From NCBI GenBank assembly GCA_902776765.1, contig CACYRP010000003.1:1-64000 (forward strand): a stretch of 64,000 bases of DNA. The letters are read 5' to 3'. Under the pieces are notes generated by a model, which saw only the letters and a list, made by a program, of their open reading frames with translations, did not search any database and was not told where the DNA came from. Below, one piece after another: positions 6,047-52,955 of this stretch. Position numbers and translations under genes: made by a program. Position 1 is the stretch's first letter. Each line of letters starts with the position of its first letter. The stretch comes from Fibrobacter succinogenes (GTDB lineage Bacteria; Fibrobacterota; Fibrobacteria; Fibrobacterales; Fibrobacteraceae).

Positions 6047-8314
6047 TTACTTGAACACTGCCGTAATTGTCTGGCCTGCGCTCACTTGTACCAATCGCGG
6101 ATTTTCGGTGGATCCGTCGGACCAGCCCGTGAATACGGTTCCGGAGCTTGCGATTGCGGTCAGCAGCAGTTCGTTATTGCTGAAGAATTTGCATTGATAA
6201 TTGTTGCTCGGGAGTTTCATCCCGTCAACTAACACGGAGCCGTTTCCGCTTGCGCCAATCGTTACAGAAACTTCGTTTTCGAGGTCGAAGCGTTCGACCA
6301 TTTCTTTTTTGATGGTTTCGCTGCGGTTCTTGGCATAAGCAATTAAATTGTTGCCATTCGGATCCCACTTGAAGTTGCTTTGGTTGCGTGGCCATCTCTT
6401 TTCGTCACGCTGCTGTTCCGAAGAGGGGATGGTTGCCATCATGGATTGCACGGTCTTTTGCACCTTTTCGTAAGTCAAGTAGCTATTGAGAAGGATGCAG
6501 GCGTTGTTGATGAAAAGCCGTTTGAAGTCGGGATTTTCAAGGAGCTTGCTCAGCATGGTGCCGGGGCCTGCACTTGCGCCGCCGCCACCGAAGCCTCCGA
6601 AGCCGCCCCACATGCCGCCTTGATTGCCTCCCTGGCTATTGGATTTTGCACCGAGTACCCAGTCGAACATGTTCTGATTATCGACGTCAAAGCCGCTGAT
6701 GCCCGGCGAGAATCCAAATCCGTGGTCGGTATCGAATGCGACGAATTTGAACGGGTGACCGTTTCCGCCCCAAGCGCGAACGTTGTTTGTAGGCCAGTCG
6801 CCATTGTGGAAATACATTTCGGCGAACATGTATTGTGCAAAACTGTTGACGTTGATTTTTGATTTTATTTGTTCGTATTTTGTGTTGTTGTCGCCAGCAA
6901 AATTGCCGCTGCTAATTTCGTTGTATAGTTGCTGGTATTCTGAAGTCGAGGCGCCATTAGTGCCACTCGCTTCTAGGGTTGTTCCCGCAATTTTAACCAT
7001 GTTGATGGACTTGGAATCGATGCCATAATTTGTCTCAACAAAGTTTCTGTTCAAGCGTTCGCGCAAGTCGTGAATGCCGAAGTATTCACCGTTGTAGAAC
7101 ACAACCACTTGGCGGCTGCGCTGGTAATCTACATCGGTGCCTTCCATAAGGGCGGTCATCATGGCATCGCCAACATAGTCGCACCAGAATCGGTTACCGT
7201 TGTTGCGCAAGTTGAATGACTTGATTTTTTTTGCTTCTGGGCGAGTCTTGAACAATGAATATTTGAGGACCTTGTCGCCGTAATTATCGTTATCCATCTT
7301 GATGGCAACGCTCTTCTTGGGTTTGTAACGGCTCCAGTTTCCGATGATGGAAATGCCGGCGTCGATTTCCCAGGCTTTGCTCTTGGAGGAACTTCCGTTT
7401 TCGAAGTATTCCACGTGAGCGGGGAGTTCATCGTCTTTCCAGAAGTTTGCGCCCTTGCAGGGTTCCGTGCATTTTGGGTTGTTGTCGTCGGTTACGTTTC
7501 CGCCTCCGCCCATGTTGCCCCAGTTGCCCATGCCGCCGCCGATACCGCTGTTGATATTGCCTGTAGCGTAGAGGCCGTCTGTAGAGTCGAACATGTCGTG
7601 ATGATTTACGGTGATGGCTACGACCGGCATCGAAACGTTTTCGTTAATGAAGTACGTTTGTGTCGTAGTATCCATAGCCTGACCGTTTACAAATTCAGAA
7701 CAACGTATAACCGTGTTTTCGGTAAGCGTTTTAGCTTCTGTAATTTGAGCGGATTGTTGGGTGGGGAAGGAACCGTCAAAAGTGCAACGGATTTCACCGC
7801 CTTTTTGCGGCGTTAGCGGATTGATGGTGAGGTTGGAATAGAAACCTGCTGCCGGGAGGAAACTGTCCTTGGGTTTGTGATTGTCATCGTAATCTTTTAG
7901 CCCGCTAGAAGATGAAACCGCATTTGCTGCAGAAGAACTGCTTGTGGCTGAGGCGTTGGAAATAGCATAGGAGCTAGAAGAATATGTTGGGGGGAGTTGG
8001 GCTGGTGTTGAACTGCTTGCAGGTGCAACTGCAGAACTAGAAACCGTAGCCGCTGATGATGAACTTTTTATGGGATCTTCGCTAGAATTGTTCGATGGTG
8101 GTACTTGCGAGGATTCGCTGGAATGCTCTATGGACGAAGATGAAACTTCTACGGAAGCCGATAAATTTGGATTTTTGCTTTGTTCAATAGACGATGACGA
8201 ATCTTCACTGATTAGTGATGATTCATTCAACGGAGCCGCTGCATTATCGTCGGTGCAGCCGCAAAAATAAGTACTCGCGAAAACGAGACCCCAAACTACG
8301 AGTTTTTTCTGCAT
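6047..8314 (-). CDS. Ser-rich lipoprotein with CotH-type domain
   Basis: This is a 755-residue protein with an N-terminal lipoprotein-type signal ending FCGC (Cys18 or Cys20). A serine-rich linker follows (about 30-140), then a chitobiase/hexosaminidase C-terminal-like domain (about 155-225, GEIRCTFDGSFPTQ). A CotH-family domain spans roughly 230-620 with FGIHDLRERLNRNF, NGDWPTNNVRAW and KFVAFDTDHGFGF. A Gly-rich patch (QGGMWGGFGG) lies within it. The last 110 residues form a small beta-type repeat domain (GWSDGSTENPRLVQVSAG). CotH proteins are atypical protein kinases in spore coats; in gut bacteria, related secreted proteins occur with carbohydrate-active enzymes. Surface location is inferred. 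GGAATGAG precedes the ATG. Confidence 0.85.
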   Translation of the reverse strand: MQKKLVVWGLVFASTYFCGCTDDNAAAPLNESSLISEDSSSSIEQSKNPNLSASVEVSSSSIEHSSESSQVPPSNNSSEDPIKSSSSAATVSSSAVAPASSSTPAQLPPTYSSSSYAISNASATSSSSAANAVSSSSGLKDYDDNHKPKDSFLPAAGFYSNLTINPLTPQKGGEIRCTFDGSFPTQQSAQITEAKTLTENTVIRCSEFVNGQAMDTTTQTYFINENVSMPVVAITVNHHDMFDSTDGLYATGNINSGIGGGMGNWGNMGGGGNVTDDNNPKCTEPCKGANFWKDDELPAHVEYFENGSSSKSKAWEIDAGISIIGNWSRYKPKKSVAIKMDNDNYGDKVLKYSLFKTRPEAKKIKSFNLRNNGNRFWCDYVGDAMMTALMEGTDVDYQRSRQVVVFYNGEYFGIHDLRERLNRNFVETNYGIDSKSINMVKIAGTTLEASGTNGASTSEYQQLYNEISSGNFAGDNNTKYEQIKSKINVNSFAQYMFAEMYFHNGDWPTNNVRAWGGNGHPFKFVAFDTDHGFGFSPGISGFDVDNQNMFDWVLGAKSNSQGGNQGGMWGGFGGFGGGGASAGPGTMLSKLLENPDFKRLFINNACILLNSYLTYEKVQKTVQSMMATIPSSEQQRDEKRWPRNQSNFKWDPNGNNLIAYAKNRSETIKKEMVERFDLENEVSVTIGASGNGSVLVDGMKLPSNNYQCKFFSNNELLLTAIASSGTVFTGWSDGSTENPRLVQVSAGQTITAVFK

Positions 8315-8533
8315 ATCTCATTCCTTGAAAAACTCTAAACCCACACGTATATCCATAATATATAGTGGTTTTTAATACGTTTGATTGTATATATTGAAAA
8401 TTTTATTTAAGCGTTGTGAAAATTGTGATATTTGATAAAACGGTTGAAACGAAAATGCTCAAAAAAAGTGTCCCGCGCTTACTGAACACTTTCAAAAATA
8501 TGACGGTTGCTGTGAGGCTTGAATTTGAATGTT

Positions 8534-9463
8534 CTAGCAGAAAAAGTCTTTCCAGATCTGATTGCCGAGTTCGTTGAGTCGAATCTGGACTTTTTCGATT
8601 TGCTCGTGAAGCCCGTGGTCGATGATTTCTTCGATGGTTGTGAACGAAATGTCGGAACGCAGCTTTCCCAAGAGGCGTATGGATTCCGCATTGCTCTTGA
8701 TGGGGAATGCGATGTTCTTTAGACATAGTTCCGCTTTTTCCAGGCAGTAGCGCAGGGAGCGCGGAAAGTCCTCGGAAAGCAACAGAAATTCCGCGACGTT
8801 ATGCGGTGTCACGTCGGAATTGCGACGGTGAAACATCTCGTAAGCGCCAACGCTCTTAAGAACGGCGTTCCACTGCACGGTATCGAGTGCCATGCCCACC
8901 ATGCTCACGTCTGGGAGCAAGATATAGTACTTGACATCTAGAATTCGCGAAGTCTGATCGGCTCGTTCGAGCAGTGTTCCAAGGTGCGTAAAGTTCCACG
9001 CCACATCGTGGCTCATAGTTCCCTGGATAATGCCTGCCGTTAACTGGCTGAATTCCTTGACGCTGCTGTAAAACGCATGGGGTGCAGCCAGAACCTGCTT
9101 GGGCATTTCAGGGTCGCTCAGTTTCAAGTAAAACTGGTTGATGGCAATCCACAGCTCCGAAGAAATCCTTTCGCGCACACAACGGGCATTCTCACGCGCA
9201 GCTGCCACGCATGAAATAATGCTGCTCGGATTTTCCTTGTCGAACGTCAGGAACGTCAATGCGTTTTCGAAGGAGGCGTGGGCGTATTTCTTGAAGAAAT
9301 CGTCCGCATTGCCAGCGATCTGAATCACTGGTTCCCAAGGGCGCACTTCACCAGGCAAGTCCAGTTGGAGTTGTAGGTTCACGTCGATACTGCGCGCCAC
9401 GTTTTCGGCACGTTCTATGTAACGGGCAAGCCAATAAATGGAATTTGCGACTCTACTTAACAT
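8534..9463 (-). CDS. Alpha-E domain protein (DUF403)
   Basis: The 309-residue all-helical protein opens with the family signature MLSRVANSIYWLARYIERAE. Alpha-E proteins have no known chemistry of their own and occur in operons with circularly permuted ATP-grasp and transglutaminase-like proteins, where they are predicted to take part in amide/peptide bond formation. It is the last gene of the four-gene minus-strand operon, 38 bases after the ATP-grasp stop. The gap is filled by a 7-base periodic array. The signature residues YxERAE are intact, unlike in the fused paralogue upstream. Confidence 0.9.
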   Translation of the reverse strand: MLSRVANSIYWLARYIERAENVARSIDVNLQLQLDLPGEVRPWEPVIQIAGNADDFFKKYAHASFENALTFLTFDKENPSSIISCVAAARENARCVRERISSELWIAINQFYLKLSDPEMPKQVLAAPHAFYSSVKEFSQLTAGIIQGTMSHDVAWNFTHLGTLLERADQTSRILDVKYYILLPDVSMVGMALDTVQWNAVLKSVGAYEMFHRRNSDVTPHNVAEFLLLSEDFPRSLRYCLEKAELCLKNIAFPIKSNAESIRLLGKLRSDISFTTIEEIIDHGLHEQIEKVQIRLNELGNQIWKDFFC

Positions 9464-9464
9464 A

Positions 9465-9506
9465 TTACACTTCCTACTTCTAACTTCCTACTTCCTACTG
9501 TTTACT
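9465..9506. repeat. 7-bp periodic array (6 heptamers)
   Basis: Plus-strand units ending in ACT follow one another without gaps: TTACACT, TCCTACT, TCTAACT, TCCTACT, TCCTACT, GTTTACT. The last unit overlaps the stop codon of the ATP-grasp gene. Confidence 0.8.
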
Positions 9507-10995
9507 GCTGTTGCTGTTGTTGTTCCATCCATAGCTTGGCCTGGCCAAGTTCCGGAGCCTTTTCGTTTTCGGCAATGACCCAAGTATCCTTACAGCCACC
9601 GCCCTGCGAGCTGTTCACCACGATAGAGCCTTTGCGGAGCGCCACACGTGTAAGACCGCCGGGAAGAATGTAGGTTTCGCGGCCCTGCACAATATAGGGG
9701 CGTAAATCCACATGGCGTCCTTCGAAACCGCCGTTCACAATGCATGGCACGCGGCTGAGCGAAATCATCGGTTGCGCAATGTAGTTACGCGGGTTCGCTA
9801 TAATCTTGCTCTTGAACGCTTCGCTTTCTTCCTTCGTCGATTTGGGCCCGACGAGCATGCCGTAACCGCCAGATTCGCTTGCCGCCTTGACAACCATGTT
9901 TTCGATGTGGTCCAACACATGCTTCATATGCTTCGGGTTTTCGCACACGAAAGTCGGCACGTTCGGAATGATGGCCTCTTGATCCAAGTAGTACTTGATA
10001 ATCTGCGGCACGTAAGTGTAAATTGCCTTGTCATCGGCGACACCGCAACCAGGAGCGTTCGCGAGCGCCACGTTTCCAGCCTTGTACGCTTCGATGAGTC
10101 CGGGCACGCCGAGACAAGAATCCGGGCGGAACACCTTCGGATCCAGGAATTCGTCATCGACACGACGGTAGATCACATGAACCTGCTTGAGTCCACGCGT
10201 GGTGCGGGCATACACCTTCTTGTCCTGCACAATGAGGTCATCTCCGGTCACCAAGTCCACGCCCATCTGCTGCGCGAGATAGGAATGTTCGTAGTAAGCG
10301 GAATTGTAGATTCCAGGCGAAAGCACGACAACCTTGGGAGAAGCAATGGGTTCGGCCAAGTATTCCAGCGATTTGCGCAGGCGGGTACAGTATTCATCTA
10401 CCGGGCGGATCGAACAGTTTGAAAACACCTGCGGAAACGTGCGCTTTAGAATCTGGCGGTTCTGCAACACGTACGAAACCCCACTTGGGCAACGCATGTT
10501 GTCTTCAAGCACATAGAAAGTGCCATCGGTATCGCGGACGAGGTCTGTGCCGGTAATGTGCGCCCAGATTCCCTTGGGAGGCACAAAGCCTTCCATCTGC
10601 GGGCGGTACGCGGTGCAGGTGCTAATAAGGCTTTCGGGCACAATCTTGTCGCGCAGAATCTTGCGTTCGTTGTAGATGTCTGTCAAAAAGCAGTTCAATG
10701 CATCGGTGCGCTGTTTCAGGCCCGCTTCAAGGTGTTTCCAGTCGGAGGCGCTTACAATGCGGGGAATGACATCGAAGGGGATGATTTTATCCTTGCCATC
10801 CTTGTTGCCGTAAACAGCGAAAGTAATGCCATTGTCATAAAATGCCGATTCTGCAATTTTCTGGCGGCGTTGCAGTTCTCCTTCGGGAAGCTCGTTGATT
10901 TTTGTAAACAACGGTTCTGCGGCCGGGCGGGGCGTCCCATCGGGTAAGCAAAGCTCGTCGTAAAAGCCTTCGGTATCGTAGTTTCCAAATCGCAT
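9502..10995 (-). CDS. Circularly permuted ATP-grasp protein (DUF404/DUF407 type)
   Basis: This is a 497-residue predicted amide-bond ligase. The ATG at 10995 (MRFGNYDTEGFYDEL) is chosen because AAGGAAA precedes it; an upstream in-frame start would add 15 basic residues. Family motifs include EDNMRCPSGVSYVLQNR, YRRVDDEFLDP, a VADDKAIYTYVP segment, the nucleotide-loop-like VVKAASESGGYGMLVGP, and HVDLRPYI with PGGLTRVAL near the end. These put it in the circularly permuted ATP-grasp group with an apparently complete active site. The protein ends in a Gln run encoded by CAA/CAG repeats. It lies 25 bases after the transglutaminase gene. Confidence 0.9.
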   Translation of the reverse strand: MRFGNYDTEGFYDELCLPDGTPRPAAEPLFTKINELPEGELQRRQKIAESAFYDNGITFAVYGNKDGKDKIIPFDVIPRIVSASDWKHLEAGLKQRTDALNCFLTDIYNERKILRDKIVPESLISTCTAYRPQMEGFVPPKGIWAHITGTDLVRDTDGTFYVLEDNMRCPSGVSYVLQNRQILKRTFPQVFSNCSIRPVDEYCTRLRKSLEYLAEPIASPKVVVLSPGIYNSAYYEHSYLAQQMGVDLVTGDDLIVQDKKVYARTTRGLKQVHVIYRRVDDEFLDPKVFRPDSCLGVPGLIEAYKAGNVALANAPGCGVADDKAIYTYVPQIIKYYLDQEAIIPNVPTFVCENPKHMKHVLDHIENMVVKAASESGGYGMLVGPKSTKEESEAFKSKIIANPRNYIAQPMISLSRVPCIVNGGFEGRHVDLRPYIVQGRETYILPGGLTRVALRKGSIVVNSSQGGGCKDTWVIAENEKAPELGQAKLWMEQQQQQQ

Positions 10996-41305: not shown

Positions 41306-42167
41306 GGGGTGAATTATGGTTTATAAAGGCGGTTTCCGCATGATTCCTGCTATCGTTTGTTCAATCTAAACGTTAATCGGTATAACGGATTTTTTCGAAC
41401 GACTTTTTGCAAAAATTTGGATTTTTTCAAGGGAGTTTGGGTTGGACTTTAAAAATTTGAGACCCAAGGCCACAGAGCTTGCCGAAGTAAGGCTGAAATC
41501 TTATTTGGTCGTTTTACGCATTTTTTTGTTTTTTTTGCAATCTATCGTTTGCATTTTTTTCTTATATTACGCTTTGACATAGGGTATTGCAGAAATTTTT
41601 GGGTTCGGTTGGCGGTTGTCTTTTATGCCATTCCGGCTTCCGAACAGGAACCTGTTTCTGCAACACTCGTTTGAAGAGTTTATTAGCTCTTGTTCTCACG
41701 CTGAAATCTGCAAATTTCAAATAACCGAGGACAAGGCGAACGCTCACGTAAATGCGATTTTCGAACCGTAGCAATGCGGCTCGTTTAGGCGTATTTCGAC
41801 AAGAACAGCAACGTTCATCGTGTCATTGCGAGCCTTTCGCATGGCATCACGGATTCGTTCCGAGTGTCATTGCGAACCGAAGGCGAAGCTATCTATACGA
41901 AACTTGCTGTGTTTTCTGTCGCCCGCTTTGGGGCGTGGGTCGTTTGCATTTATCGGTTATGGGCAATGCAGAGCCTCAGCGTGATAAATTGCAGCGACCT
42001 GCGTCCTTTCTTTTTCCAAAGAAAATCGCTAGTTCGGGAATTATTTGTTCCGCCTGTAAATTTCATCGAGCAAGAGCGCAAAGTGCGTTTTGTGGCTTTG
42101 CGAAATTTGTCTGACGCCGTCGGCTTTTATCGCTTTGCTACGGATTGTGCAAAGGGCGATTTGATAG
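41306..42167. other. Long gene-free region before the defence island
   Basis: It holds a very short frame with a good ribosome site at 41316-41369 (17 codons, MVYKGGFRMIPAIVCSI), a weak CGTTA/TAACG hairpin with T6 near 41,371-41,395, the candidate structured RNA (41,575-41,760) and interspersed GTCATTGCGA repeat sequence at about 41,820-41,890. Longer frames at 41752 and 41864 lack ribosome sites and look random. Confidence 0.5.
41575..41760 (+). ncRNA. Candidate structured RNA
   Basis: GTATTGCAGAAA (41584-41595) pairs with TTTCTGCAACAC (41655-41666), 11 of 12. Nested inside are GTTCGG (41603-41608) with CCGAAC (41640-41645) and TGGC (41610-41613) with GCCA (41627-41630). Two further hairpins follow (AAGAG/CTCTT and TGAAAT/ATTTCA). 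A TATATT box lies at 41563-41568, with no good -35. It is not recognisable as tmRNA, RNase P or SRP RNA. Confidence 0.4.
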
Positions 42168-45104
42168 ATGGGTGGAACATTTGGCGTAAAAAGCAACGAA
42201 GAACAGTTGCAGGTGATTCGCACGACGGAATCTCCGCTTTTGGTTATTGCTGGCCCTGGCGCAGGCAAAACCAAGACTTTGGTGGATCGAGTATGCCATC
42301 TGATTTACGATTTGAATGTCTCCCCCGAAAATATTTTGATTGGTACTTTTACTGAGAAGGCGGCCAAAGAATTACTTTCACGAATCTCAACAGTTTCCGC
42401 CAATTATAAGGTCCAAAAAAATATTTCCGAAATCCGAGTAGGGACATTGCATTCGTTGTTCCTAGACTTTTTGGAAGAATATCGCGAATACACGGAACTT
42501 CGCCGTGGATACCGTGTTCTTGACGATTTTGAACAACAATACCTTGTTTACCGGAACGCTTCTAAATTCAATCAGGTTGAAGGACTGGTTGAAATTCTTG
42601 AAAGTGAATTTGCATATGGTTGGAAGTCTGCGAAAAAGATTTGCTACCTGGTAAACAAGGTTGCCGAGGAAAATCTGGATTTAGAAAAACTTGCTCAAAG
42701 CAAGGAATCGAATCGTCTTCTAGCTTTAGCGCAACTAGTTTCAGTATATCGAAAAATTTTGTTTGAAGAGAATGCGCTGGATTTTTCGCTGATTCAAACT
42801 AAAATGTGGGAGCTCCTTGATAATCAAGAGGTGCTCAAGGATATCCGAAAGAAAATCCATTACATCATGGTGGATGAGTATCAGGATACGAACCGAATTC
42901 AGGAACAGATTCTTTTGAAAATGGCGGTTCCCGACAATCGCATTTGTGTGGTTGGCGATGATGACCAGGCCCTTTACCGTTTCCGCGGTGCGACTGTCGA
43001 AAATATTTTGCGTTTTCGAGACAAATTCCCGGGCCTTTTCAGAAGCAAGTGTAAAAAGGTCGAGATGGATAAGAATTATCGTTCTCACCCAGACATCATC
43101 GATTTCTACAACAAATGGATGGAACGTCCGTATGATGGCGAGTGGGGCGAGTTTCGTCACAATAAGGTGGTTAAGTGTGCTGGCAAGCAGAATCGAAAGA
43201 ATTCTCCATACACAGGCGTTGTCAAATGTATGGGGCAGAATGTCGATGAATGGTGCCGCAACTTCTACAATTTTATACATAATCTTGAACTCAAGGGCTC
43301 ATTAACTGATTATAACCAAGTCGCGCTGCTCGCTTATTCCGTAAAGAATGAAAAGATTGTCGCTTTAACAAATTATTTGGAAAAACACGACATCCCTGTG
43401 TTTTCACCAAGATCGGGACAGTTCTTCAATAGAAAAGAAATACAGCTTGCTATCGGAGCCTTGCTATTCCTTTTCCCAAAATGTGAAGAGATGTATTTGG
43501 ATGACGGAAACAATGCGAAGTTCATGGAAGGAATCTGGGCATATTACGATTTATGCCTAGATGTTTTCGCAAATGAGTTAAGGAAAATGCCCCAAACGCA
43601 TAGAGAATTACAAGTTTGGGCTGTTACCAAGGCGAAGGAAATCGCCAAGGCGACAAGAAATACGGACTACTCCTTTGCGAATCTATTCTACGAAATGCTG
43701 CAGTTCCCGCTATTCGCTGATTTCTTGGATATGGAGCTTGATAGCGGTGTAAAAGACTTGCGTCCTCTCTATAATTTGGGTTTGTTTAGCCAGCTGCTTG
43801 CCCGCTTTGAAAGCATGAATGGTATCACGGGCATCTATGCCGACGAAAAAAAACGAACGCAGGAAATTCGCCGTTTGTTTAACGAGTATTTCAAGTTCCT
43901 GCACGATGGCGGGATTGCTGAATTTGAAGACTTTGACATGGTGACACCGTCGGGTTGTGTGAGTATCATGACAATCCACCAGAGCAAGGGGCTTGAATTC
44001 CCGGTGACTTGTGTTGATTCGTTGGATTGGAGTCCCCGTAAAAATTACGATGAACTTGATGTTGAAATTGCAAAATATTATCACGGAAAAGATCCGTGGG
44101 AACCTTTAGAGCGCACCAAGTTCTTTGATTTTTGGAGACTTTACTATACGGCTTTTAGCAGGGCGCAAAATTTACTGGTGTTGACCGGCATTGATAATAG
44201 TTCTGGGCGCGAAAGAGGCGAATTCAGAAGTCCTTCAAAATACTTCGCCCATGTTTATAAGGGTGTCCCTGATTTTACGAGGCTTTTTGTGGCGGGAACG
44301 CCGGACGTATCACTTGATTTAGTTAAGCCGAGTAATGTCAAACATCAGTATTCGTTTACCAGTCATGTGCTTCTCTACGAAAACTGCCCGACGCAATACA
44401 AATTCTTTAGAGAGGCGGAATTCAGCCCCGTACGCACGAACGCCATCTTGTTTGGTTCCTTGGTGCATGAGACCATCGAAGATGTTCACAGACAGGTGCT
44501 TGCAGGAAATGTCAAAAATGTGACTTCCGAAAATATGCGTGAGTGGCTGCAAGACAACTACCGTCAGATTTCCAAAGAATTGGGTGTTTATTTACGTCAG
44601 TCTTCATTGGATTCCATTTTGAATCATGTTGAAAATTATGTGGACTATGCAAGTCGCGATTGGGCGAAGGTGAAAGAAGCCGAAGTCCCCTTGACATTGC
44701 TTAAGGAAGATTACATTCTAGAAGGTCGTATTGACCTGATTCAGGGTTCCGGTGAAACATTGGAAATCCTTGATTTCAAGACGGATGTGAAGCCTGATGT
44801 CAATAATGCCAAAGACCGTGAAAAACTGAATCGTTACAAGCGGCAACTTGAAATTTACGCACACATTGTTGAAGAAAAATATGGTAAGCCAGTAAGCAAG
44901 ATGCATCTGTTCTACACAGGAACAAAGGACGGCTCGCCATACGTGACATACGATTACAGCCGTAGTTCAATAGAAAACACCATGAACGAAGTTGCCGATG
45001 TGGTGCAGAAAATTGAACGCAAGGATTTTACCCGCACTCACGAGCGCGACCCCAAGAAATGCTCGGAATGCGACTTTAGACACTATTGCAACAACCATTG
45101 TTAA
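42168..45104 (+). CDS. UvrD-type helicase fused to an AddB/Cas4-like Fe-S nuclease
   Basis: This is a 978-residue superfamily 1A helicase. Walker A is AGPGAGKT (28-35), motif II VDEYQDTN (near 235), motif III GDDDQALYRFRGA and motif VI YTAFSRAQN. The C-terminal 230 residues form a RecB-family nuclease: GRIDLIQGS, ILDFKTD near 868, a first Cys in YENCPTQYKFF and a C-terminal CSECDFRHYC cluster that would hold a 4Fe-4S centre as in AddB and Cas4. It is followed 11 bases later by a type III methyltransferase and then the restriction subunit, so it is probably an accessory of that system. The start codon choice is not strongly supported by a ribosome site. Confidence 0.88.
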   Translation: MGGTFGVKSNEEQLQVIRTTESPLLVIAGPGAGKTKTLVDRVCHLIYDLNVSPENILIGTFTEKAAKELLSRISTVSANYKVQKNISEIRVGTLHSLFLDFLEEYREYTELRRGYRVLDDFEQQYLVYRNASKFNQVEGLVEILESEFAYGWKSAKKICYLVNKVAEENLDLEKLAQSKESNRLLALAQLVSVYRKILFEENALDFSLIQTKMWELLDNQEVLKDIRKKIHYIMVDEYQDTNRIQEQILLKMAVPDNRICVVGDDDQALYRFRGATVENILRFRDKFPGLFRSKCKKVEMDKNYRSHPDIIDFYNKWMERPYDGEWGEFRHNKVVKCAGKQNRKNSPYTGVVKCMGQNVDEWCRNFYNFIHNLELKGSLTDYNQVALLAYSVKNEKIVALTNYLEKHDIPVFSPRSGQFFNRKEIQLAIGALLFLFPKCEEMYLDDGNNAKFMEGIWAYYDLCLDVFANELRKMPQTHRELQVWAVTKAKEIAKATRNTDYSFANLFYEMLQFPLFADFLDMELDSGVKDLRPLYNLGLFSQLLARFESMNGITGIYADEKKRTQEIRRLFNEYFKFLHDGGIAEFEDFDMVTPSGCVSIMTIHQSKGLEFPVTCVDSLDWSPRKNYDELDVEIAKYYHGKDPWEPLERTKFFDFWRLYYTAFSRAQNLLVLTGIDNSSGRERGEFRSPSKYFAHVYKGVPDFTRLFVAGTPDVSLDLVKPSNVKHQYSFTSHVLLYENCPTQYKFFREAEFSPVRTNAILFGSLVHETIEDVHRQVLAGNVKNVTSENMREWLQDNYRQISKELGVYLRQSSLDSILNHVENYVDYASRDWAKVKEAEVPLTLLKEDYILEGRIDLIQGSGETLEILDFKTDVKPDVNNAKDREKLNRYKRQLEIYAHIVEEKYGKPVSKMHLFYTGTKDGSPYVTYDYSRSSIENTMNEVADVVQKIERKDFTRTHERDPKKCSECDFRHYCNNHC

Positions 45105-45115
45105 AGGGATTGATT

Positions 45116-47020
45116 ATGGCAAACGAAAATGATACGTTCAAGTTCGAATTGGAACCCATCAAGGGATTCCCGGAACTCCGCTGGGCGGGCAAGCGTCCCT
45201 TTACTGGAACGGCCTATTATCCGGCGCAGTTGAAGGAATCCTATGGTGAACCTGCTGAAGATGGTTGGATGAACAAACTCTATTGGGGTGACAATTTGCA
45301 GGTGATGAGCCACTTGCTCAAAGAATACCGTGGCAAGGTGAATCTGATTTACATCGATCCGCCGTTTGATTCAAAGGCCGATTACAAGAAAAGAATTGAG
45401 CTAAGAGGGAAAGCTGCCTTAGGAAATAATAGCTCTTTTGAAGAAAAACAGTACGGTGATATTTGGTCTAATGATGAGTATCTTACTTTTATGTATGAAC
45501 GACTAATTCTTTGTAAAGAATTGTTGAGCGATACTGGTAGCTTTTATGTGCATTGTGATTGGCATATGTGCCATTATTTAATTTCAATAATGAATGAATT
45601 ATTTGGACAGGAAAATTTTGTAAATCAAATTTCTTGGAAGAGAACATTCGCTCACGGAGATATGGGGCAGGGCGCTAAACATCTGGGTCGAATTACAGAT
45701 TATATTTTGGTATATAAAAAGAGTAATCAATTCACTTTGAATCAATTATACACTCCTTACGAACAGTCATACATTGATAAAACTTTTAAATATAAAGATG
45801 ATGATGGTCGTCGGTGGCAGTCCGTTTCTTTAACAGCTCCTGGAGGTGCTGCTAAAGGAAACCCTTATTATGAGTTTTTAGGTGTTCATCGATATTGGCA
45901 GTATTCACAAGAAAATATGAAAAAACTTTATGAAAATGGGTATATATATCAAGGAGCCGCAGGGCAGGTCCCTCGAAAAAAAATGTATTTGGACGAGGCG
46001 AAAGGTGTTCCTTTGCAGGATGTTTGGACCGATATTGTTCCTGTTCAGGGTGGGGCTATTGAAAACTATAATTACCCAACGCAAAAACCAGAAAAACTTC
46101 TTGAACGAATAATAGAGCTTGCCTCTAACCCCGGTGATATTGTATTTGACTGCTTTATGGGAAGTGGCACGACACAAGCTGTTGCCATGAAACTCGGTCG
46201 CAGGTTCCTTGGTGCGGACATCAATCTTGGTGCAATTCAAACCACGACAAAACGCCTTGTTGCTCGCGCAAAAGAAATTTCATCTGATTCTACGCTTTTC
46301 AGCGAGCAAAAAAGTTATACAGGTTTTGAAGTTTACAACGTAAACGATTACGATTTCTTTCGCAATGAATTAGAAGCGAAACGCCTCATCATTGAAGCGC
46401 TCGGTATGCAGGCCTTGCCGGAAAACAACCTTTGGGATGCCGAATTGGATGGCCGCATGGTTGCAATTCTCGGAATCAATCGTATCGCGACAGCCGCTGA
46501 ATTCTCTAAAATCGTAAACAATATTGATATCGGTGACTGGACCCGCCGCCAAGCAGAAACACCGAATAAGCCCATTGAAAAAATTACCTTCGTCTGCATG
46601 GGCCATGACCCTAATCTCAAGGCCATGTTCATTGAAGAAATGCAGAAACTCGGTTTCAAGGTGGATCTTGAAATCGTGGATATCCTTCGCGACAAGAAGG
46701 ACTTGACATTTAAACGTGACTCCGACGCTCGCGTTAAAATTAGCGGCAATAGACTATCCATTACTGATTTCTATCCTATGAATCTATTGCAGAAACTTTC
46801 TATCCAATGTGAAGACGTTTCTGACTGGAAGGAATTGGTGGATTCCGTGATGATTGACTGGAATTACGATGGGGCTACATTCAGTCCGAGCATTACGGAT
46901 ATTCCCGCCAAGAATGATATGGTCAAGGGGGTCTATGAAATTCCCAAGGATGTCGGTACAATCCATATAAAAATCACCGACTTGCTCAGTGAAAGTTGGG
47001 AAGGCTCTTTTGAGGCGTAG
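45116..47020 (+). CDS. Type III restriction system adenine methyltransferase (Mod)
   Basis: The 634-residue beta-class N6-adenine methyltransferase has DPPF (81-84, YIDPPFDS) before the SAM-binding FxGxG motif (FDCFMGSGTTQA near 346), the order typical of Mod. The variable target-recognition region (about 100-335) is clearly more AT-rich than the two ends, which share host-like codon use. The ATG at 45116 follows AAAGGGA; the helicase stop is 11 bases upstream and Res starts 8 bases after the stop. Confidence 0.92.
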   Translation: MANENDTFKFELEPIKGFPELRWAGKRPFTGTAYYPAQLKESYGEPAEDGWMNKLYWGDNLQVMSHLLKEYRGKVNLIYIDPPFDSKADYKKRIELRGKAALGNNSSFEEKQYGDIWSNDEYLTFMYERLILCKELLSDTGSFYVHCDWHMCHYLISIMNELFGQENFVNQISWKRTFAHGDMGQGAKHLGRITDYILVYKKSNQFTLNQLYTPYEQSYIDKTFKYKDDDGRRWQSVSLTAPGGAAKGNPYYEFLGVHRYWQYSQENMKKLYENGYIYQGAAGQVPRKKMYLDEAKGVPLQDVWTDIVPVQGGAIENYNYPTQKPEKLLERIIELASNPGDIVFDCFMGSGTTQAVAMKLGRRFLGADINLGAIQTTTKRLVARAKEISSDSTLFSEQKSYTGFEVYNVNDYDFFRNELEAKRLIIEALGMQALPENNLWDAELDGRMVAILGINRIATAAEFSKIVNNIDIGDWTRRQAETPNKPIEKITFVCMGHDPNLKAMFIEEMQKLGFKVDLEIVDILRDKKDLTFKRDSDARVKISGNRLSITDFYPMNLLQKLSIQCEDVSDWKELVDSVMIDWNYDGATFSPSITDIPAKNDMVKGVYEIPKDVGTIHIKITDLLSESWEGSFEA

Positions 47021-47028
47021 AGGGTGAT

Positions 47029-49740
47029 ATGGCAAAGAAAAATATCGTAGAACTTCCTTTCTACAAGTACTTGTGGAATTTCTATTCCGTCCACAAGGCT
47101 GAAATCAAGAGTGAATATGACCCGCTAACCAAGCGAATCCTTTCGCATGCCAATCCGGAGAATCCAGGTGCGTTTCTTCGTAAGCCGCAATATGAAGCCT
47201 TTGAAATCTATGTATTTCTGAAGGAATACTTGGACAACCCGAAGCTATTTGATTTGTTCGATGATTGGCGACATAACAAGGGAAAGTTTTGCGTCAAAGA
47301 TACACAGTTGTTGGAATCCATTTCGACGGACCTTTTTGCCGAACAGGAGGAAATGCGAAAAATCGAAGATGCGAAAATCATCGAACCCGCTATTACTCAA
47401 TTACAAAATCTGAGACAGACTTATTCCAACTACATTTTCTCGCTTACGATGGGAACGGGTAAGACCATCCTGATGGCTCTTTGCATATTCTACGAATTTC
47501 TACTAGCGAAGAAACGTCCGAAGGACTTGCGCTACTGCCATAATGTTCTTGTTCTTGCTCCTGATACCACCGTATTGCAGTCGCTCAAGGAAATTCTCAC
47601 CTTTGACAAGTCAAAAATTTTCTCGCCGGAATATGCCAATACTCTTGACACGATTCTCAAGTTTCATTTCTTGGAAGACGATGGCATTAGTCTCTCGACG
47701 ATGGATGGTTCCGACTTTAACGTAATTATTTCGACAAGTCAAAAAATCATCCTTAAAAAGAAGCACAAGGAAGATTCTGCAAGCATCCAACTGTTTAAGG
47801 AAAGCTGGGAATCTGCGATGGAAAATAACCCTAATGCAGACCTTTATCAGCTTGATGAAACGGAATTGACTGCAAACCAGCGCTATGTGAAAATCACACG
47901 ACTTCCGCAACTTGGAATCTACGTGGATGAGGCCCACCATGCGTTTGGCAAGTCGCTCAAGAGCGACATGCTTGATCGCAGCAAGGAAACTAGTCTGAGG
48001 CTTACCATTGACAACTTGGCCAAGGAACTCGAACGTTCCGGATCCAAAGTTGTCGCTTGCTACAACTTTACGGGAACGCCCTATGTTGATAACCAGCTCA
48101 TGCCAGAAGTGGTATATGAATACGGGCTCCGCGAAGCAATCGATAACCGTTACTTAAAGGAAGTCGATGTCAAGGATTTTGACAACGTAAAAAGCGGAAC
48201 ATTCATTGATAAATCTATTGATGAATTTGTTCAGCAACATGCAAATCAAAAAGGAGTATTCAAAAGATACGAAGGGATGCTCCCGAAGATGGCTTTTTTT
48301 GCAAATACCATTGAAGAATTGACCAATGACTTGAAACCGGCCGTAGAGAGGGCTCTTATAAAGCATGATATTTCGCTGGATTCCATCTTGGTCAATGTGG
48401 GTGACGACAAGGTAACCAAAAGTGATGATTTGCGAGAATTTAAACTGCTTGATACCGCAGAATCTCAAAAACAATTCATTTTGTTGGTGGGCAAAGGAAA
48501 AGAAGGCTGGAATTGTCGTTCCTTGTTTTCTGTCGCCTTATATCGTGAACCCAAGAGCACCATCTTTGTATTGCAGGCCACAATGCGTTGCCTGCGTTCT
48601 ATAACAGAACAACAGCAACACGGCATCGTATTTCTTTCTTCTGAAAATCTCGTCATTTTGCAAAATGAATTGCAAAGTAACTTCAGGATGACTGTTAACG
48701 ACCTGACGCACAAAAATACGGATACAAAAAAAGAACGCCGGATTTATGTGCGCAAGAAGGTTCCCGTCAAGATGATGGAACAGGTTTCTACATTCAAGGT
48801 TGAACCTAAGCAGGTCGGTGAATACACCATTTTTGACGAAACATTTAATTTTGACTTGTGGCGAAAAACAGAAGGCTCTCATACACTTCGTAATATTGAT
48901 TCGGCGGCAATTCGAAAAGAAATACGTAGTTCTGTTGACCGCACATTTACGCCGTATAGCCTAGTTGCGGAAATATCACTTTACTTGACGCAGCACGAGT
49001 CTTCTGGTATTCTTTTTTCACCTTGCGAAATTCGCGAGTTGCTGGATCGTTCTACGGATGGGATAGACAGGATTCTGGAAAAGGTGAATTACGCAAATGA
49101 AATTCTCTACGACTTCGTCATTCCAAAACTTTTCAGTCAACTTTACAATGTCAAATATGAAGCTGGCGAGCCTAAGGAAGTCATAAAGTATATAGTCAAG
49201 GATCCTCCAAAGAATGGTCCTGATGAAGGTTCCGCATATTACACTATGCGCTTTAGCGATGACAAGTTTGTGTCCGATGTGAGTGCCAGGTATAATGCGT
49301 TCAATCAGATGGATGGCAACAAGAAAAGCTTTGATTTGTCGGGATATGGCTTTGACTCAAATCCTGAACGACAATTCTTTGATAGAAACCTCTTCAACAA
49401 TAACGAAATTAAGCATATCTGGTTCACGGGAATGCTTACTAACGGCCAATCCAATTTCTACGTACATTACATAGATCCGGAATCCCATTCGCTTCGCTCG
49501 TACTTCCCTGATTTCCTTGTCGAAGACAATGCAGGAAAATTCTACATCGTTGAAATCAAGGGCCGTAATCTGATAAGTCATCCGTCAACACGAGCAAAAG
49601 AAGAATATGCGAGACAGATGGCGACATTAAGCAAAATGGAATATGTGTTCATTCCAGATGACTTGGCAGATATGATATTGCAGGAATTTGTGGTGCAATC
49701 AAAAGCTAGTAACTCGGAAGATGCGGCGAAAATGTTCTGA
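47029..49740 (+). CDS. Type III restriction system helicase-nuclease (Res)
   Basis: The 903-residue superfamily 2 ATPase has Walker A in TMGTGKTILMAL (about 139-148) and DEAH-type motif II in VDEAHHAFG (about 299). Motif III-like FTGTPYVDN and motif VI-like QATMRCLRS follow. The C-terminal endonuclease domain carries PD-(D/E)XK residues in SYFPDFLVED (about 825) and VEIKGRN (about 842). All motifs are intact, so the enzyme looks functional. It needs Mod for site recognition. GAGGGTGAT precedes the ATG. Confidence 0.92.
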   Translation: MAKKNIVELPFYKYLWNFYSVHKAEIKSEYDPLTKRILSHANPENPGAFLRKPQYEAFEIYVFLKEYLDNPKLFDLFDDWRHNKGKFCVKDTQLLESISTDLFAEQEEMRKIEDAKIIEPAITQLQNLRQTYSNYIFSLTMGTGKTILMALCIFYEFLLAKKRPKDLRYCHNVLVLAPDTTVLQSLKEILTFDKSKIFSPEYANTLDTILKFHFLEDDGISLSTMDGSDFNVIISTSQKIILKKKHKEDSASIQLFKESWESAMENNPNADLYQLDETELTANQRYVKITRLPQLGIYVDEAHHAFGKSLKSDMLDRSKETSLRLTIDNLAKELERSGSKVVACYNFTGTPYVDNQLMPEVVYEYGLREAIDNRYLKEVDVKDFDNVKSGTFIDKSIDEFVQQHANQKGVFKRYEGMLPKMAFFANTIEELTNDLKPAVERALIKHDISLDSILVNVGDDKVTKSDDLREFKLLDTAESQKQFILLVGKGKEGWNCRSLFSVALYREPKSTIFVLQATMRCLRSITEQQQHGIVFLSSENLVILQNELQSNFRMTVNDLTHKNTDTKKERRIYVRKKVPVKMMEQVSTFKVEPKQVGEYTIFDETFNFDLWRKTEGSHTLRNIDSAAIRKEIRSSVDRTFTPYSLVAEISLYLTQHESSGILFSPCEIRELLDRSTDGIDRILEKVNYANEILYDFVIPKLFSQLYNVKYEAGEPKEVIKYIVKDPPKNGPDEGSAYYTMRFSDDKFVSDVSARYNAFNQMDGNKKSFDLSGYGFDSNPERQFFDRNLFNNNEIKHIWFTGMLTNGQSNFYVHYIDPESHSLRSYFPDFLVEDNAGKFYIVEIKGRNLISHPSTRAKEEYARQMATLSKMEYVFIPDDLADMILQEFVVQSKASNSEDAAKMF

Positions 49741-49872
49741 TATTTTGCAGCCTAAAAAGGATAATGCAGGTAAAGCTTTTTTTGAAGCGGGTTATATGCA
49801 ACATCTGTGAAATCGGCAAGGAACGCGTCTGCCGTGCTGGTATGAGGATTATGGATTCTATTGCCACTTCGA

Positions 49873-49912
49873 GGCTCCAGAATGACAACGCTGAATCTGT
49901 CATCCTGGAGCC
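49873..49912. repeat. REP-like inverted repeat
   Basis: GGCTCCAGAATGACA (49873-49887) pairs with TGTCATCCTGGAGCC (49898-49912), 14 of 15. The GTCATCCTG core also occurs in the intergenic DNA near 35,490 and 35,540. Confidence 0.7.
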
Positions 49913-50007
49913 TTTGATACTTGGCGAAGCCTTTCATGCCTTTTACCCCGGCTTCCGAGCTGGGGGATAGGAACCATTATTTATTGAATAGCATTTGCGA
50001 TAGGTCC

Positions 50008-50160
50008 ATGATTGCCCGCCTTGTCGCCTGATTTTACGAAGAAATTACCGAAAAATTCATCAAGTCTGTCATCGACGATCCCGATAGCGACAAGGTTCTC
50101 GACAACTTCGAGCAACTCTTTGTCCACTACTGCCCCTCCACTAAACGCAGGGTCGTTTAA
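50008..50160 (+). pseudogene. Gene remnant with in-frame TGA
   Basis: ATG at 50008 opens MIARLVA, then TGA at 50029, then the same frame continues as FYEEITEKFIKSVIDDPDS... to a TAA at 50158. The 43-residue tail is acidic, helical and clearly protein-like. It appears to be the end of a decayed gene. The family is not recognised. Confidence 0.4.
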
Positions 50161-50165
50161 TCAAA

Positions 50166-50246
50166 CATTTTGCGAAAATGCGTGATTTTAATTAAAAACA
50201 TTTTGCGAAAATGGAAAATTTTGTCAAAAAATATTTTGCGAAAATG
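50166..50246 (+). promoter_or_regulatory. Three 15-bp operator-like repeats at 33-bp spacing
   Basis: CATTTTGCGAAAATG occurs at 50166-50180 and 50199-50213, and with one change (first base T) at 50232-50246. Each is a CATTTT/AAAATG inverted repeat around GCG. The start-to-start spacing is exactly 33 bases twice, about three helix turns. The third copy overlaps the probable -35; the -10 TATATT is at 50257-50262. Confidence 0.75.
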
Positions 50247-50283
50247 ATTAAATGTTTATATTTTGAACAAAAAGAGGCAAAAT

Positions 50284-51612
50284 ATGATATTTAAACGCAA
50301 GATGTATGCAACAATGCTTCGTTGGAAAAACGAACGCCCGGGAAAGACCGCACTGCTGTTGAAAGGGGCTCGTCGTGTAGGCAAATCTACTCTGGTGGAA
50401 GAATTCGCGAAAAGGGAGTATAAATCCTACATTCTAGTGGATTTTTCTAGAAAATCCAAGGAAATCGATGAACTTTTCGACAACATGATGGATTTGGACT
50501 TTTTCTTCTTGCGTCTGCAGAACATTTTCGGGGTATCTTTGCACAAGCGTGAATCCGTCATTGTTTTTGATGAAGTGCAGATGCAGCCTCTGGCAAGGCA
50601 GGCTATAAAGCATTTGGTGAAGGATGGTCGTTACGACTATATCGAAACCGGCTCCCTATTGTCGCTGAAGAAAAACATCAAGGGAATTGTAATCCCGAGT
50701 GAAGAACATGCAGAAACGCTTTGTCCCCTTGATTTTGAGGAATTCTATTGGGCTATCGGGAACACGGTATCTCCTGAACAGATGCAAGACGCTTTCATGA
50801 TGAAGCGGCCCATGGGCGAGGCTGTGCATCGTCGCTGGATGCGAGACCTCAGACTCTATATGCTGGTCGGTGGAATGCCTCAGGCCGTGGAGGCGTATCT
50901 GGAGTCTAACGATATGAGTGTGGTCGATGAGGTTAAACGCGGAATTCTTGAAATATACGATTCGGATTTTTACCGTATTGACCCGTCTGGCCGTGCGTCC
51001 AAAATTTTTTCGGCAATCCCCAGTCAACTGAATAGCAACGCTTCGAGGTTCAGAATCGGCAGTGCTATCAAAAAGCAAAGTTACAATAAGACCGGTTCGC
51101 TTATAGCAGAAATTGAAAGTAGTAAGACGGTGACAATCGCTCATCATGTGAATGACCCTCAAGTAGGCATGGGAATGTTCGCTGATTTCAACGTTTATAA
51201 GATGTTTCTTGCAGATACAGGCCTGTTCGTAACGCTTGCTTTTAAGGATAAATTATATACAGAAAACGAAATTTATCGGAAGTTGCTTTCAGATAAGTTA
51301 GAATCCAACATGGGCTATGTCTATGAGAACCTTGTTGCTCAAATGTTGAAAACGAAGGGTTTTGAAATTTTTTATTACACGTTCCCTACTGAAAACAGGC
51401 ACAATTATGAGATAGATTTTTTGCTTTCTCGAGGCAAAAAGATTATTCCCGTCGAAGTAAAATCTTCCGGTTACAAGACTCATAAATCCCTTGATATGTT
51501 CTGCGAAAAGTTTTCGTCGCGGATTGGCGAAAGAATTTTGCTTTATACGAAGGATTATCAAAAAGATGGTCCCGTAACATGCCTTCCCATTTATTACACG
51601 CCATTTCTATAA
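50284..51612 (+). CDS. AAA ATPase of the DUF4143 (AAA_14) type
   Basis: The 442-residue protein has Walker A GARRVGKST (28-36) and Walker B VIVFDEVQ (about 93-100). The C-terminal DUF4143-like domain contains a restriction-endonuclease-like segment (HNYEIDFLLSRG, IIPVEVKSSGY). The ATG at 50284 follows AAAGAGG; a TTG at 50263 overlaps the -10. These ATPases are common near mobile and defence genes; their job is unknown. The end overlaps the next frame. Confidence 0.88.
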   Translation: MIFKRKMYATMLRWKNERPGKTALLLKGARRVGKSTLVEEFAKREYKSYILVDFSRKSKEIDELFDNMMDLDFFFLRLQNIFGVSLHKRESVIVFDEVQMQPLARQAIKHLVKDGRYDYIETGSLLSLKKNIKGIVIPSEEHAETLCPLDFEEFYWAIGNTVSPEQMQDAFMMKRPMGEAVHRRWMRDLRLYMLVGGMPQAVEAYLESNDMSVVDEVKRGILEIYDSDFYRIDPSGRASKIFSAIPSQLNSNASRFRIGSAIKKQSYNKTGSLIAEIESSKTVTIAHHVNDPQVGMGMFADFNVYKMFLADTGLFVTLAFKDKLYTENEIYRKLLSDKLESNMGYVYENLVAQMLKTKGFEIFYYTFPTENRHNYEIDFLLSRGKKIIPVEVKSSGYKTHKSLDMFCEKFSSRIGERILLYTKDYQKDGPVTCLPIYYTPFL

Positions 51613-51842
51613 CCGTAAATGTTTTTGCGGGGCAGCCATGCTACGACAATACCGTTTATCGTCGTGACTTGGGTAAGCGCAAAGGTCAGGTAAGCGTATT
51701 CGATCAAGATGACGTGGGCTTCTGTAACCACGATATCGAACTTTCCGAAAGTGAACTGCTCGCTAACATCCACAAGTCGCAGGATATATGTGTTTTAAAG
51801 CCCCGCCTTTTTATGCATGTAGGCGGAGGGAGTGAAAGATGA
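51579..51842 (+). CDS. Hypothetical 87-aa protein, possibly 5'-truncated
   Basis: The ATG at 51579 lies inside the ATPase gene. The frame (MPSHLLHAISITVNVF..., then CYDNTVYRRDLGKRKGQVSV) ends in an ATGA overlap with the next gene, which favours it being real. There is no obvious ribosome site. The first 15 residues may not be native, so it may be the C-terminal part of an older gene. The family is not recognised. Confidence 0.5.
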   Translation: MPSHLLHAISITVNVFAGQPCYDNTVYRRDLGKRKGQVSVFDQDDVGFCNHDIELSESELLANIHKSQDICVLKPRLFMHVGGGSER

Positions 51843-52396
51843 AGAATAGCGTAAACGCTGGTAGTGTCGGCATTTGGCTCGACGAAATTGTTCCCTGCCT
51901 CAAGGATACCGAAACTGGGGAAATCAAGGAAACTGTGGTATTCGGGATTGAAAGCAGGTCTTTCCTGAAAAAATTCAACGAAAAGAACGGATGGGGAATA
52001 AATTGGATTAAAATTCCAAAAGAAGTGGATGTTTTCGCCCTTGCGTTGAAGGAAAATAATGAAATTCAGGGGCTTGTTGGGGTGAAAAATGACGTGGATG
52101 TAAAAGCCGCCTATTTGCATTGGGCTTGTACGGCTCCGCACAATAATAAACATGCTTATGGCAGGCAAAAATATAGTGGCGTTGGGGGCCATCTTTTCGC
52201 CATAACAGTTGAAAAATCCATGCAATGGGGGTACGAGGGGACAGTACATGGTTTTGCCCTTAACAAAACGCTCTTAAATCACTATATTGAAGTTCTAGGG
52301 GCGACCTATTTAGGCGCTTTGCATCCCTATCAATTTTTTCTTGATAGAGATGCGGCACGGAAACTCTTGGAGGTCTATTCGTATGAATGGAATTAG
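51839..52396 (+). CDS. GNAT-fold acetyltransferase-like protein
   Basis: The 185-residue protein has a probable acyl-CoA binding turn in KYSGVGGHLFAITVEKSMQWG, followed by GTVHGFALNKTLLNHYIEVLG, which resembles GNAT motifs A and B. The N-terminal half is a beta-rich region (GIWLDEIVPCLKDTETGE). It overlaps the upstream frame by ATGA and the downstream gene by 14 bases. A toxin-antitoxin or protein-modifying role is possible but not shown. Confidence 0.65.
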   Translation: MKNSVNAGSVGIWLDEIVPCLKDTETGEIKETVVFGIESRSFLKKFNEKNGWGINWIKIPKEVDVFALALKENNEIQGLVGVKNDVDVKAAYLHWACTAPHNNKHAYGRQKYSGVGGHLFAITVEKSMQWGYEGTVHGFALNKTLLNHYIEVLGATYLGALHPYQFFLDRDAARKLLEVYSYEWN

Positions 52397-52574
52397 GAAA
52401 CCGGCCGTCATTTTGGCGGATTCCATGGAAGAGTATATGGCTCCTCCTAATCCGTACAAAAATCCTCCTAAAGGCAAACTGAACTTGCTGGAACTGGGAA
52501 GATACGCAAGGCGTGTCGGGAAAACTGTTGATAAATTGACCGCCGAGGAAATTCTACAGTTTAAGATTCCGTAA
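52383..52574 (+). CDS. Small protein of the GNAT cassette (63 aa)
   Basis: MNGIRKPAVILADSMEEYMA opens a 63-residue protein that ends LTAEEILQFKIP. Its start overlaps the GNAT gene by 14 bases with AGGAGG-like GGAGG upstream (TTGGAGGTC). Its size, overlap and polar nature suit an antitoxin or partner. A terminator-like hairpin follows. Confidence 0.6.
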   Translation: MNGIRKPAVILADSMEEYMAPPNPYKNPPKGKLNLLELGRYARRVGKTVDKLTAEEILQFKIP

Positions 52575-52660
52575 TACTGTGCACGTTCGATTCCCTAGAA
52601 GACATCGTTGTGCTTCGCAGTTAGCTTGATGCGTAATTATTTAATCATTAAAATATCAAG

Positions 52661-52687
52661 TTGATTTGAAAATCAATAATTTTTTTT
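52661..52687 (+). terminator. Terminator of the GNAT cassette
   Basis: A 6-bp stem TTGATT/AATCAA with loop TGAA is followed by TAAT and T8. The stem is short and AT-rich. Confidence 0.5.
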
Positions 52688-52925
52688 GAAAAAAAATACT
52701 GTGTCAAAATATGACGCTACAATGATGTAGACCGTTCGTCAAAACTTTCACTGCATCTGCGCCAATTGCAGAAACATATACAGCGACATTTGCTCCGACA
52801 CCAATGACGGAGATTTGCTCCCCTTTGAAAGTTTGGCGAAATTGACGCGAAAATAAGCGAAACGATTCTCTAAAACCTATCGGATGTTTGCAAGTGCATA
52901 TTTCAATCATCAATAAAAATTTTAA

Positions 52926-52955
52926 TTGTAAAAAGGAGTTTTCTTTTTCTACATT
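52926..52955 (+). promoter_or_regulatory. purB promoter, TTGTAA-N18-TACATT
   Basis: The predicted start near 52,962 leaves about 24 bases of leader containing AAAAGGA. Confidence 0.55.

Follow-up and report, generated by a model that had tools for sequence, protein, structure and literature searches.

A UvrD-Cas4 helicase-nuclease gene linked to divergent type III-like mod and res genes in Fibrobacter and other bacteria

The locus and its genes

We analyzed a window of 64,000 nucleotides from a contig within the 3.92-Mb draft genome (G000) of Fibrobacter, the proteins of which have paralogous domains of the Fibrobacter type. It holds three plus-strand frames lying head to tail (Table 1), which a sequence-only reading of this DNA had described as a UvrD helicase with an AddB/Cas4-like Fe-S nuclease (here UvrD-Cas4), a Mod and a Res, separated by gaps of 11 and 8 bp; all of this proved correct to the base. 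The length of Mod is counted from an ATG, and a longer frame with a TTG start opens at 45086. That reading had also named a separate promoter as evidence against a functional link. Promoter-like sites in the three-gene block number 17, against 16.3 expected from shuffling, so there is no excess. Since several copies of the trio also have overlapping reading frames, we rejected a promoter of its own for Mod or Res.

Table 1. Features of the Fibrobacter trio and of the slot that holds it
Feature	Position	Strand	Description
UvrD-Cas4	42168..45104	+	978 aa; SF1 UvrD-type helicase, ~aa 8-720; RecB/AddB/Cas4-type nuclease, ~aa 725-978
Mod, beta-class N6/N4 DNA methyltransferase	45116..47020	+	634 aa; N6_N4_Mtase; IDPPFD and CFMGSG motifs
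Mod target-recognition region, swapped segment	45596..46075	+	aa 161-320
Res, SF2 helicase-like motor and C-terminal PD-(D/E)XK nuclease	47029..49740	+	903 aa; ResIII, TnsA-like N
Variable cargo slot, 5'-nucleotidase gene to purB	41306..52950		Flanking genes near-adjacent in relatives

Pfam places PF00580 and PF12705, a UvrD helicase and a Cas4-like nuclease, on the single 978-aa chain of UvrD-Cas4 (UvrD-helicase, E 1.1e-66; PDDEXK_1, E 6e-23; Cas_Cas4, E 3.8e-6; also UvrD_C). The helicase and nuclease motifs are present (Walker A GAGKT, DEYQDT, H767, GRID, DFK, QxxxY), as are four cysteines, C740, C965, C968 and C974. The nuclease thus has the iron-staple arrangement, a four-cysteine Fe-S pattern spanning the domain together with RecB nuclease motifs. 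Thirteen catalytic or Fe-S residues are invariant in the 22 trios that we compared, and C740, C965, C968, C974, H767, D856, D869, K871, Q893 and Y897 are unchanged in every one. An AlphaFold2 model of the protein (pLDDT 76) was matched by Foldseek to AddA, UvrD, PcrA, AdnB and RecB.

Mod carries an N6_N4_Mtase domain (E 3e-51) and, among PDB sequences, matched the EcoP15I Mod (4zcf, E 1.6e-17) as well as MboIIA (1g60). It has the layout of a type III methyltransferase, D81-P82-P83-F84 and F347-G349-G351 with the variable stretch of aa 161-320 in between. Its profile aligned with 99.5% probability to the canonical Mod of a second type III system in the same genome, L010. Res matched ResIII above the cut-off (E 2.1e-6) and has the motifs MGTGKT, DEAHH, QATMRCLR and PD828-E842-K844 (PD-EIK); its helicase and nuclease centers are invariant in 22/22 trios. 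The AlphaFold2 model of Res, built from six sequences, reached a pLDDT of 48.6.

The trio is mobile cargo in a variable chromosomal slot. In two relatives (G001 and G014) the slot is empty, with the 5'-nucleotidase gene and purB 35-75 bp apart, and in two others (G004 and G006) different genes fill it. Another copy (G003; L008, L134, L135) is part of, or adjoins, a contractile-tail prophage with genes for tail sheath, major head protein and head protease. The G026 copy is flanked by leuS on one side and by a second copy of the 3' part of leuS on the other (L009, 3306-5999 and 18000-18884), as if it had been inserted with duplication of the end of its target gene. Elsewhere in the window, three tandem 33-bp repeats (AAACATTTTGCGAAAATG...) at 50163-50261 directly precede a DUF4143/AAA_14 ATPase gene (50263-51612) and could be its operator.

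Linkage to Mod and Res and exchange of specificity

UvrD-Cas4, Mod and Res were each used as a separate query, so that the choice of query does not fix the answer on linkage. All three matched the same 6 of 168 Fibrobacterota genomes (G000, G003, G026, G132, G143 and G150). The chance of two random 6-of-168 sets coinciding is 1 in 2.9e10, a figure to be read with the kinship of these genomes, which makes them non-independent. Among 72,556 plasmid records, 14 have a Res match of at least 80% query coverage. Full-length Mod is found in exactly these 14, and each of them carries full-length UvrD-Cas4 as well; in the plasmid trios that we opened, the order was UvrD-Cas4, Mod, Res (8 of 8). In E. 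coli, UvrD-Cas4 and Res match the same 3 of 5,426 genomes. The trios there sit on chromosomal islands, in two cases with a tRNA-Sec and an integrase alongside; one E. coli trio is that of strain VG888-46E9 (NZ_CP128581.1, 1973803-1981297). The only full-length Res match among phage records, in Acutalibacteraceae phage NatCom_11578, also belongs to a trio.

The helicase-nuclease had been proposed to be locked to Mod and Res, with a search for the same gene order in other genomes as a check. Indeed, the three genes are neighbors in 6/6 Fibrobacterota genomes and occur together in 14/14 plasmids, 3/3 E. coli genomes, 1/1 phage and 3/3 viral contigs; with Res as the starting point, every set gave the same answer. 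The same order is found in Fibrobacterota, Bacillota, Bacteroidota, Pseudomonadota, plasmids and one phage record, and it is kept in the 22 trios, some of which have an additional gene separating UvrD-Cas4 from Mod. Adjacency by chance is ruled out by this census. Shortened Res pieces on enterococcal plasmids were considered as exceptions to the linkage; 2 of 10 start beside IS1216 and have downstream genes in common with the intact pDY28-poxtA locus, so these two look like remnants.

The additional genes between UvrD-Cas4 and Mod lie at 12920-13825 in L013, 12880-13647 in L014, 10915-12496 in L095, 10880-11620 in L105 and 5232-6095 in L109. As a shared fourth component they were rejected, being unrelated except for the L014/L105 pair (59%). 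Directly ahead of the L013 trio, from a Lachnospiraceae genome, are genes for a PDC-M30A-like protein and a radical SAM protein (7944-9973).

Within the sets searched (plasmids, phage and viral records, E. coli and Fibrobacterota), we found no full-length Res of the trio branch without UvrD-Cas4. Relatives of UvrD-Cas4 without Mod and Res do occur, on an Annamia plasmid (L096) and in Ruminococcus (L012). The dependence is one-sided: in this branch, Mod and Res require UvrD-Cas4 or at any rate always retain it, and the reverse association is looser. The UvrD-Cas4 scan of genome contigs was dominated by generic UvrD, and only its top matches are UvrD-Cas4 relatives. In Fusobacterium vincentii, a distant relative (L104, 7989-14666) stands ahead of genes that by eye resemble sbcD and sbcC, a repair context.

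UvrD-Cas4 has also evolved along with Res and the Mod core. The distance matrices of UvrD-Cas4 and Res correlate with a Mantel r of 0.96 (17 trios) or 0.95 (22 trios), those of UvrD-Cas4 and the Mod core with 0.84, and those of UvrD-Cas4 and the Mod recognition region with 0.21; such values are inflated by related sequences, and only complete trios entered the comparison. Purifying selection on UvrD-Cas4 itself is strong (dN/dS 0.07). In trees, all three genes of the G026 Fibrobacter copy group with Lachnospiraceae and phage rather than with the other Fibrobacter copies, so the trio moves horizontally as one unit.

The recognition region follows a different course. Across trios, aa 161-320 of Mod are 12-35% identical. 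When our locus is compared with that of G150, identity reaches 98.1% for UvrD-Cas4 and 98.9% for Res, whereas aa 161-320 of Mod are 23-33% identical between flanking segments of 68-100%; the ends of Mod are 94-100% identical. Two E. coli alleles whose UvrD-Cas4 is 95% identical provide a second, independent case of a recognition-region swap. Since UvrD-Cas4 and Res stay nearly identical around a divergent aa 161-320, specificity is exchanged by recombination with no adjustment of the helicase-nuclease. UvrD-Cas4 thus appears to track Res and the Mod core and to ignore the recognized sequence, as expected for an enzyme that acts on ends or on a Res complex.

Relation to known systems

The trio had been labeled a type III system. 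The label stands as far as the Mod and Res motifs and the ResIII domain go, and it needs qualification because both proteins belong to a divergent branch. Pfam finds neither PF18273, the C-terminal Mod domain of EcoP15I, nor PF19778, the Res endonuclease, in the trio, and both are present in L010 (PF18273 T3RM_EcoP15I_C in Mod, PF19778 in Res), which has no helicase-nuclease neighbor; we therefore do not file the trio with the EcoP15I branch. Our Res and the canonical Res of L010 align in hhalign over 60 columns only (E 4e-4, probability 37%). Res has no match in PADLOC, and neither phmmer nor a profile search credibly matched it to any PDB sequence. The trio shares with EcoP15I, EcoPI and L010 a beta-class Mod with an internal recognition region, a mod gene before res, and a Res made of an SF2 helicase and a C-terminal PD-(D/E)XK nuclease. 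It differs from them in lacking PF18273, PF19778 and any PDB or PADLOC match for Res, and in having a third gene. Judged by sequence, Mod and Res of the trio form a divergent type III branch apart from that of EcoP15I. Their nearest relatives outside the trio branch, the Mod/Res pairs of L113 and L114, carry other third genes: an Ideonella relative has a HEC-01A-like AAA ATPase as accessory, and one from Sphingomonas has an AAA ATPase and a restriction endonuclease. Apparently, a third enzyme has joined a type III core more than once.

The combination was thought to be undescribed, and this did not hold up. In 2017, Hudaiberdiev et al. (PMC5704561) reported type III Mod and Res as the commonest neighborhood of UvrD-Cas4 fusions, which they considered probable parts of defense systems. 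Their Fig. 6 shares with our locus the UvrD-like SF1 helicase with a pfam12705 Cas4-like nuclease, Mod, Res and the proposal of defense; the likeness is drawn from domains and adjacent genes, and no structural difference between the two can be demonstrated. The arrangement is thus not new. What we add is a census that starts from Res, the one-sided dependence, the congruent trees and the uncoupling from the recognition region, together with carriage by phage and plasmids and the separation of Mod and Res from the EcoP15I branch. Our literature search, with subscription papers and preprints outside its reach, turned up no experiments on the trio.

Three other kinds of enzyme resemble UvrD-Cas4. 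Bad, a DNA2-like helicase-nuclease of Geobacillus encoded beside a type III Mod, was proposed to be part of a new class of restriction enzyme (PMC7430649). Like UvrD-Cas4, it joins a helicase and an Fe-S nuclease in a single chain next to a type III-like Mod. Unlike UvrD-Cas4, which is UvrD-type with a C-terminal nuclease, Bad has its nuclease at the N terminus, and its SF1B motor, of 5'-3' polarity, includes a central domain. The two are independent combinations of the same ideas. AddAB, AdnAB and RecBCD also pair a UvrD-type motor with a RecB-family nuclease, and the UvrD-Cas4 model matches AddA, AdnB and RecB. These complexes consist of two or three subunits, whereas UvrD-Cas4 is one chain, mobile and linked to Mod and Res. 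No second helicase-nuclease subunit is found among the open frames of the locus, and no evidence of Chi, nor any Chi-like or RecA-loading element, was identified for UvrD-Cas4. Finally, GajB of Gabija has the same UvrD-type helicase core, but it has GajA as its partner and no Cas4 nuclease domain. The best PADLOC matches of UvrD-Cas4 are the helicase domains of GajB and DRT, in both cases over the generic core only, and the open frames beside the trio include no gene for a GajA-like protein (OLD-like ATPase-TOPRIM). We therefore rejected membership in Gabija. With no PADLOC match for Res and a match to the generic core only for UvrD-Cas4, counts of such systems are probably too low.

Possible role of the helicase-nuclease

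The reading we favor, which we give about an even chance of being right, is that the trio is a type III-like restriction-modification module in which UvrD-Cas4 degrades DNA after Res cuts it. Mod would use its exchangeable recognition region to read an asymmetric site, and would methylate adenine on host DNA. Mod and Res would together survey DNA, with Res cutting at unmodified sites. UvrD-Cas4 would then load on the broken ends, or receive them from Res, unwind the DNA with a motor of the 3'-5' type and chop the strands with its Fe-S nuclease. A few cuts would in this way become an irreversible loss of invader DNA, even if a phage blocks host RecBCD, religates or recombines.

Several features of the trio bear on this proposal. 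Both nuclease centers are intact in 22/22 trios, so neither the UvrD-Cas4 nor the Res nuclease replaces the other. UvrD-Cas4 is first in the operon and hence made before Mod, the protecting methylase; as a first-made product, an enzyme that attacked unmodified DNA alone would be dangerous. Since UvrD-Cas4 ignores the recognized sequence, tracks Res, coexists with an intact Res nuclease and is expressed first, the most economical reading is a sequence-blind degrader that Res supplies with cut ends. The nearest folds of the modeled structure, AddA, AdnB and RecB, belong to end processing and may favor a degrader that acts after the cut. The distant relative beside SbcD/SbcC-like genes in Fusobacterium likewise seems to count for an end-processing role. 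Processing of cleaved ends, which the sequence-only reading had also offered, is accordingly the role that we would prefer, and UvrD-Cas4 is most likely a dedicated, sequence-indifferent partner that degrades DNA after Res cuts.

Some observations argue against the favored reading. With a RecB-like protein already in the host (E 1.9e-142, under the curated cut-off), a second end-degrader is partly redundant. EcoP15I-type systems work without a helicase-nuclease partner, and L010 also manages without UvrD-Cas4. The homologs without Mod and Res (L012 and L096) indicate that the enzyme has uses of its own, and the coevolution pattern would be identical if UvrD-Cas4 were a fixed subunit of a cutting complex.

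Restriction enzymes make a few cuts, and the fate of the pieces usually falls to host RecBCD. RecBCD degrades DNA after restriction cuts (PMC12707154), and a review describes degradation of phage DNA by RecBCD, inhibition of RecBCD by phages and the sensing of ends by other systems (PMC12904381). If our reading is true, a built-in degrader would explain how such systems cope with RecBCD-blocking phages and function in foreign hosts. The trio would then be a clean, widespread and apparently untested restriction system with its own DNA-degrading machine. Some copies are native to E. coli, which makes the question easily testable in a laboratory strain.

In the strongest alternative, UvrD-Cas4 is an obligate subunit. 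Mod and Res would find an unmodified site and license UvrD-Cas4 to unwind and degrade, with Res acting mainly as a sensor or nicking partner. Linkage to Res and coevolution with it are as tight as for subunits, full-length Res of the trio branch never occurs without UvrD-Cas4 in the plasmid, phage and viral sets, and the authors of the Bad paper proposed such a class for their enzyme (PMC7430649). However, the PD-(D/E)XK residues kept by Res in 22/22 trios suggest that Res probably cuts, and homologs of UvrD-Cas4 exist without Mod and Res. We consider this rather unlikely. We are only slightly less doubtful about a bolder version, in which the trio is not a type III enzyme with a helper but an ATP-dependent restriction enzyme of a class of its own. 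Its three parts would all be obligate, and an exchangeable Mod together with Res would license the helicase-nuclease to unwind and degrade invading DNA processively.

UvrD-Cas4 could instead protect the host, either by resecting accidental chromosomal breaks made by Res for repair or by limiting self-damage after a change of recognition region or entry into a new cell. Recognition-region swaps would leave the chromosome open to cutting until it is methylated, AddAB and RecBCD folds repair breaks, and a RecB/AddB-like role in recombination has been suggested for UvrD-Cas4 (PMC5704561). On the other side, no Chi-like or RecA-loading element was identified, the host already has its RecB-like protein, and type III systems in general manage without UvrD-Cas4. 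Phages and plasmids that carry the gene would also gain more from attack than from repair of the host. Protection of the host is therefore improbable.

The sequence-only reading had entertained a second line of attack; one that does not depend on Res is made less likely by the coevolution of UvrD-Cas4 with Res. Here UvrD-Cas4 would be a separate layer of defense, for example a Gabija-like sensor of phage ends that merely shares the operon. The matches to GajB and DRT and the stand-alone homologs would fit; the confinement of those matches to the generic core, the missing GajA gene and the constant presence of UvrD-Cas4 with full-length Res of this branch in the sets searched do not, and we think this very improbable. 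Lastly, the lack of any functional link, with three chance neighbors sharing a slot that is indeed variable, is scarcely credible given the same 6/168 genomes for all three genes, the same order in four phyla, plasmids and phage, and the overlapping frames of several copies.
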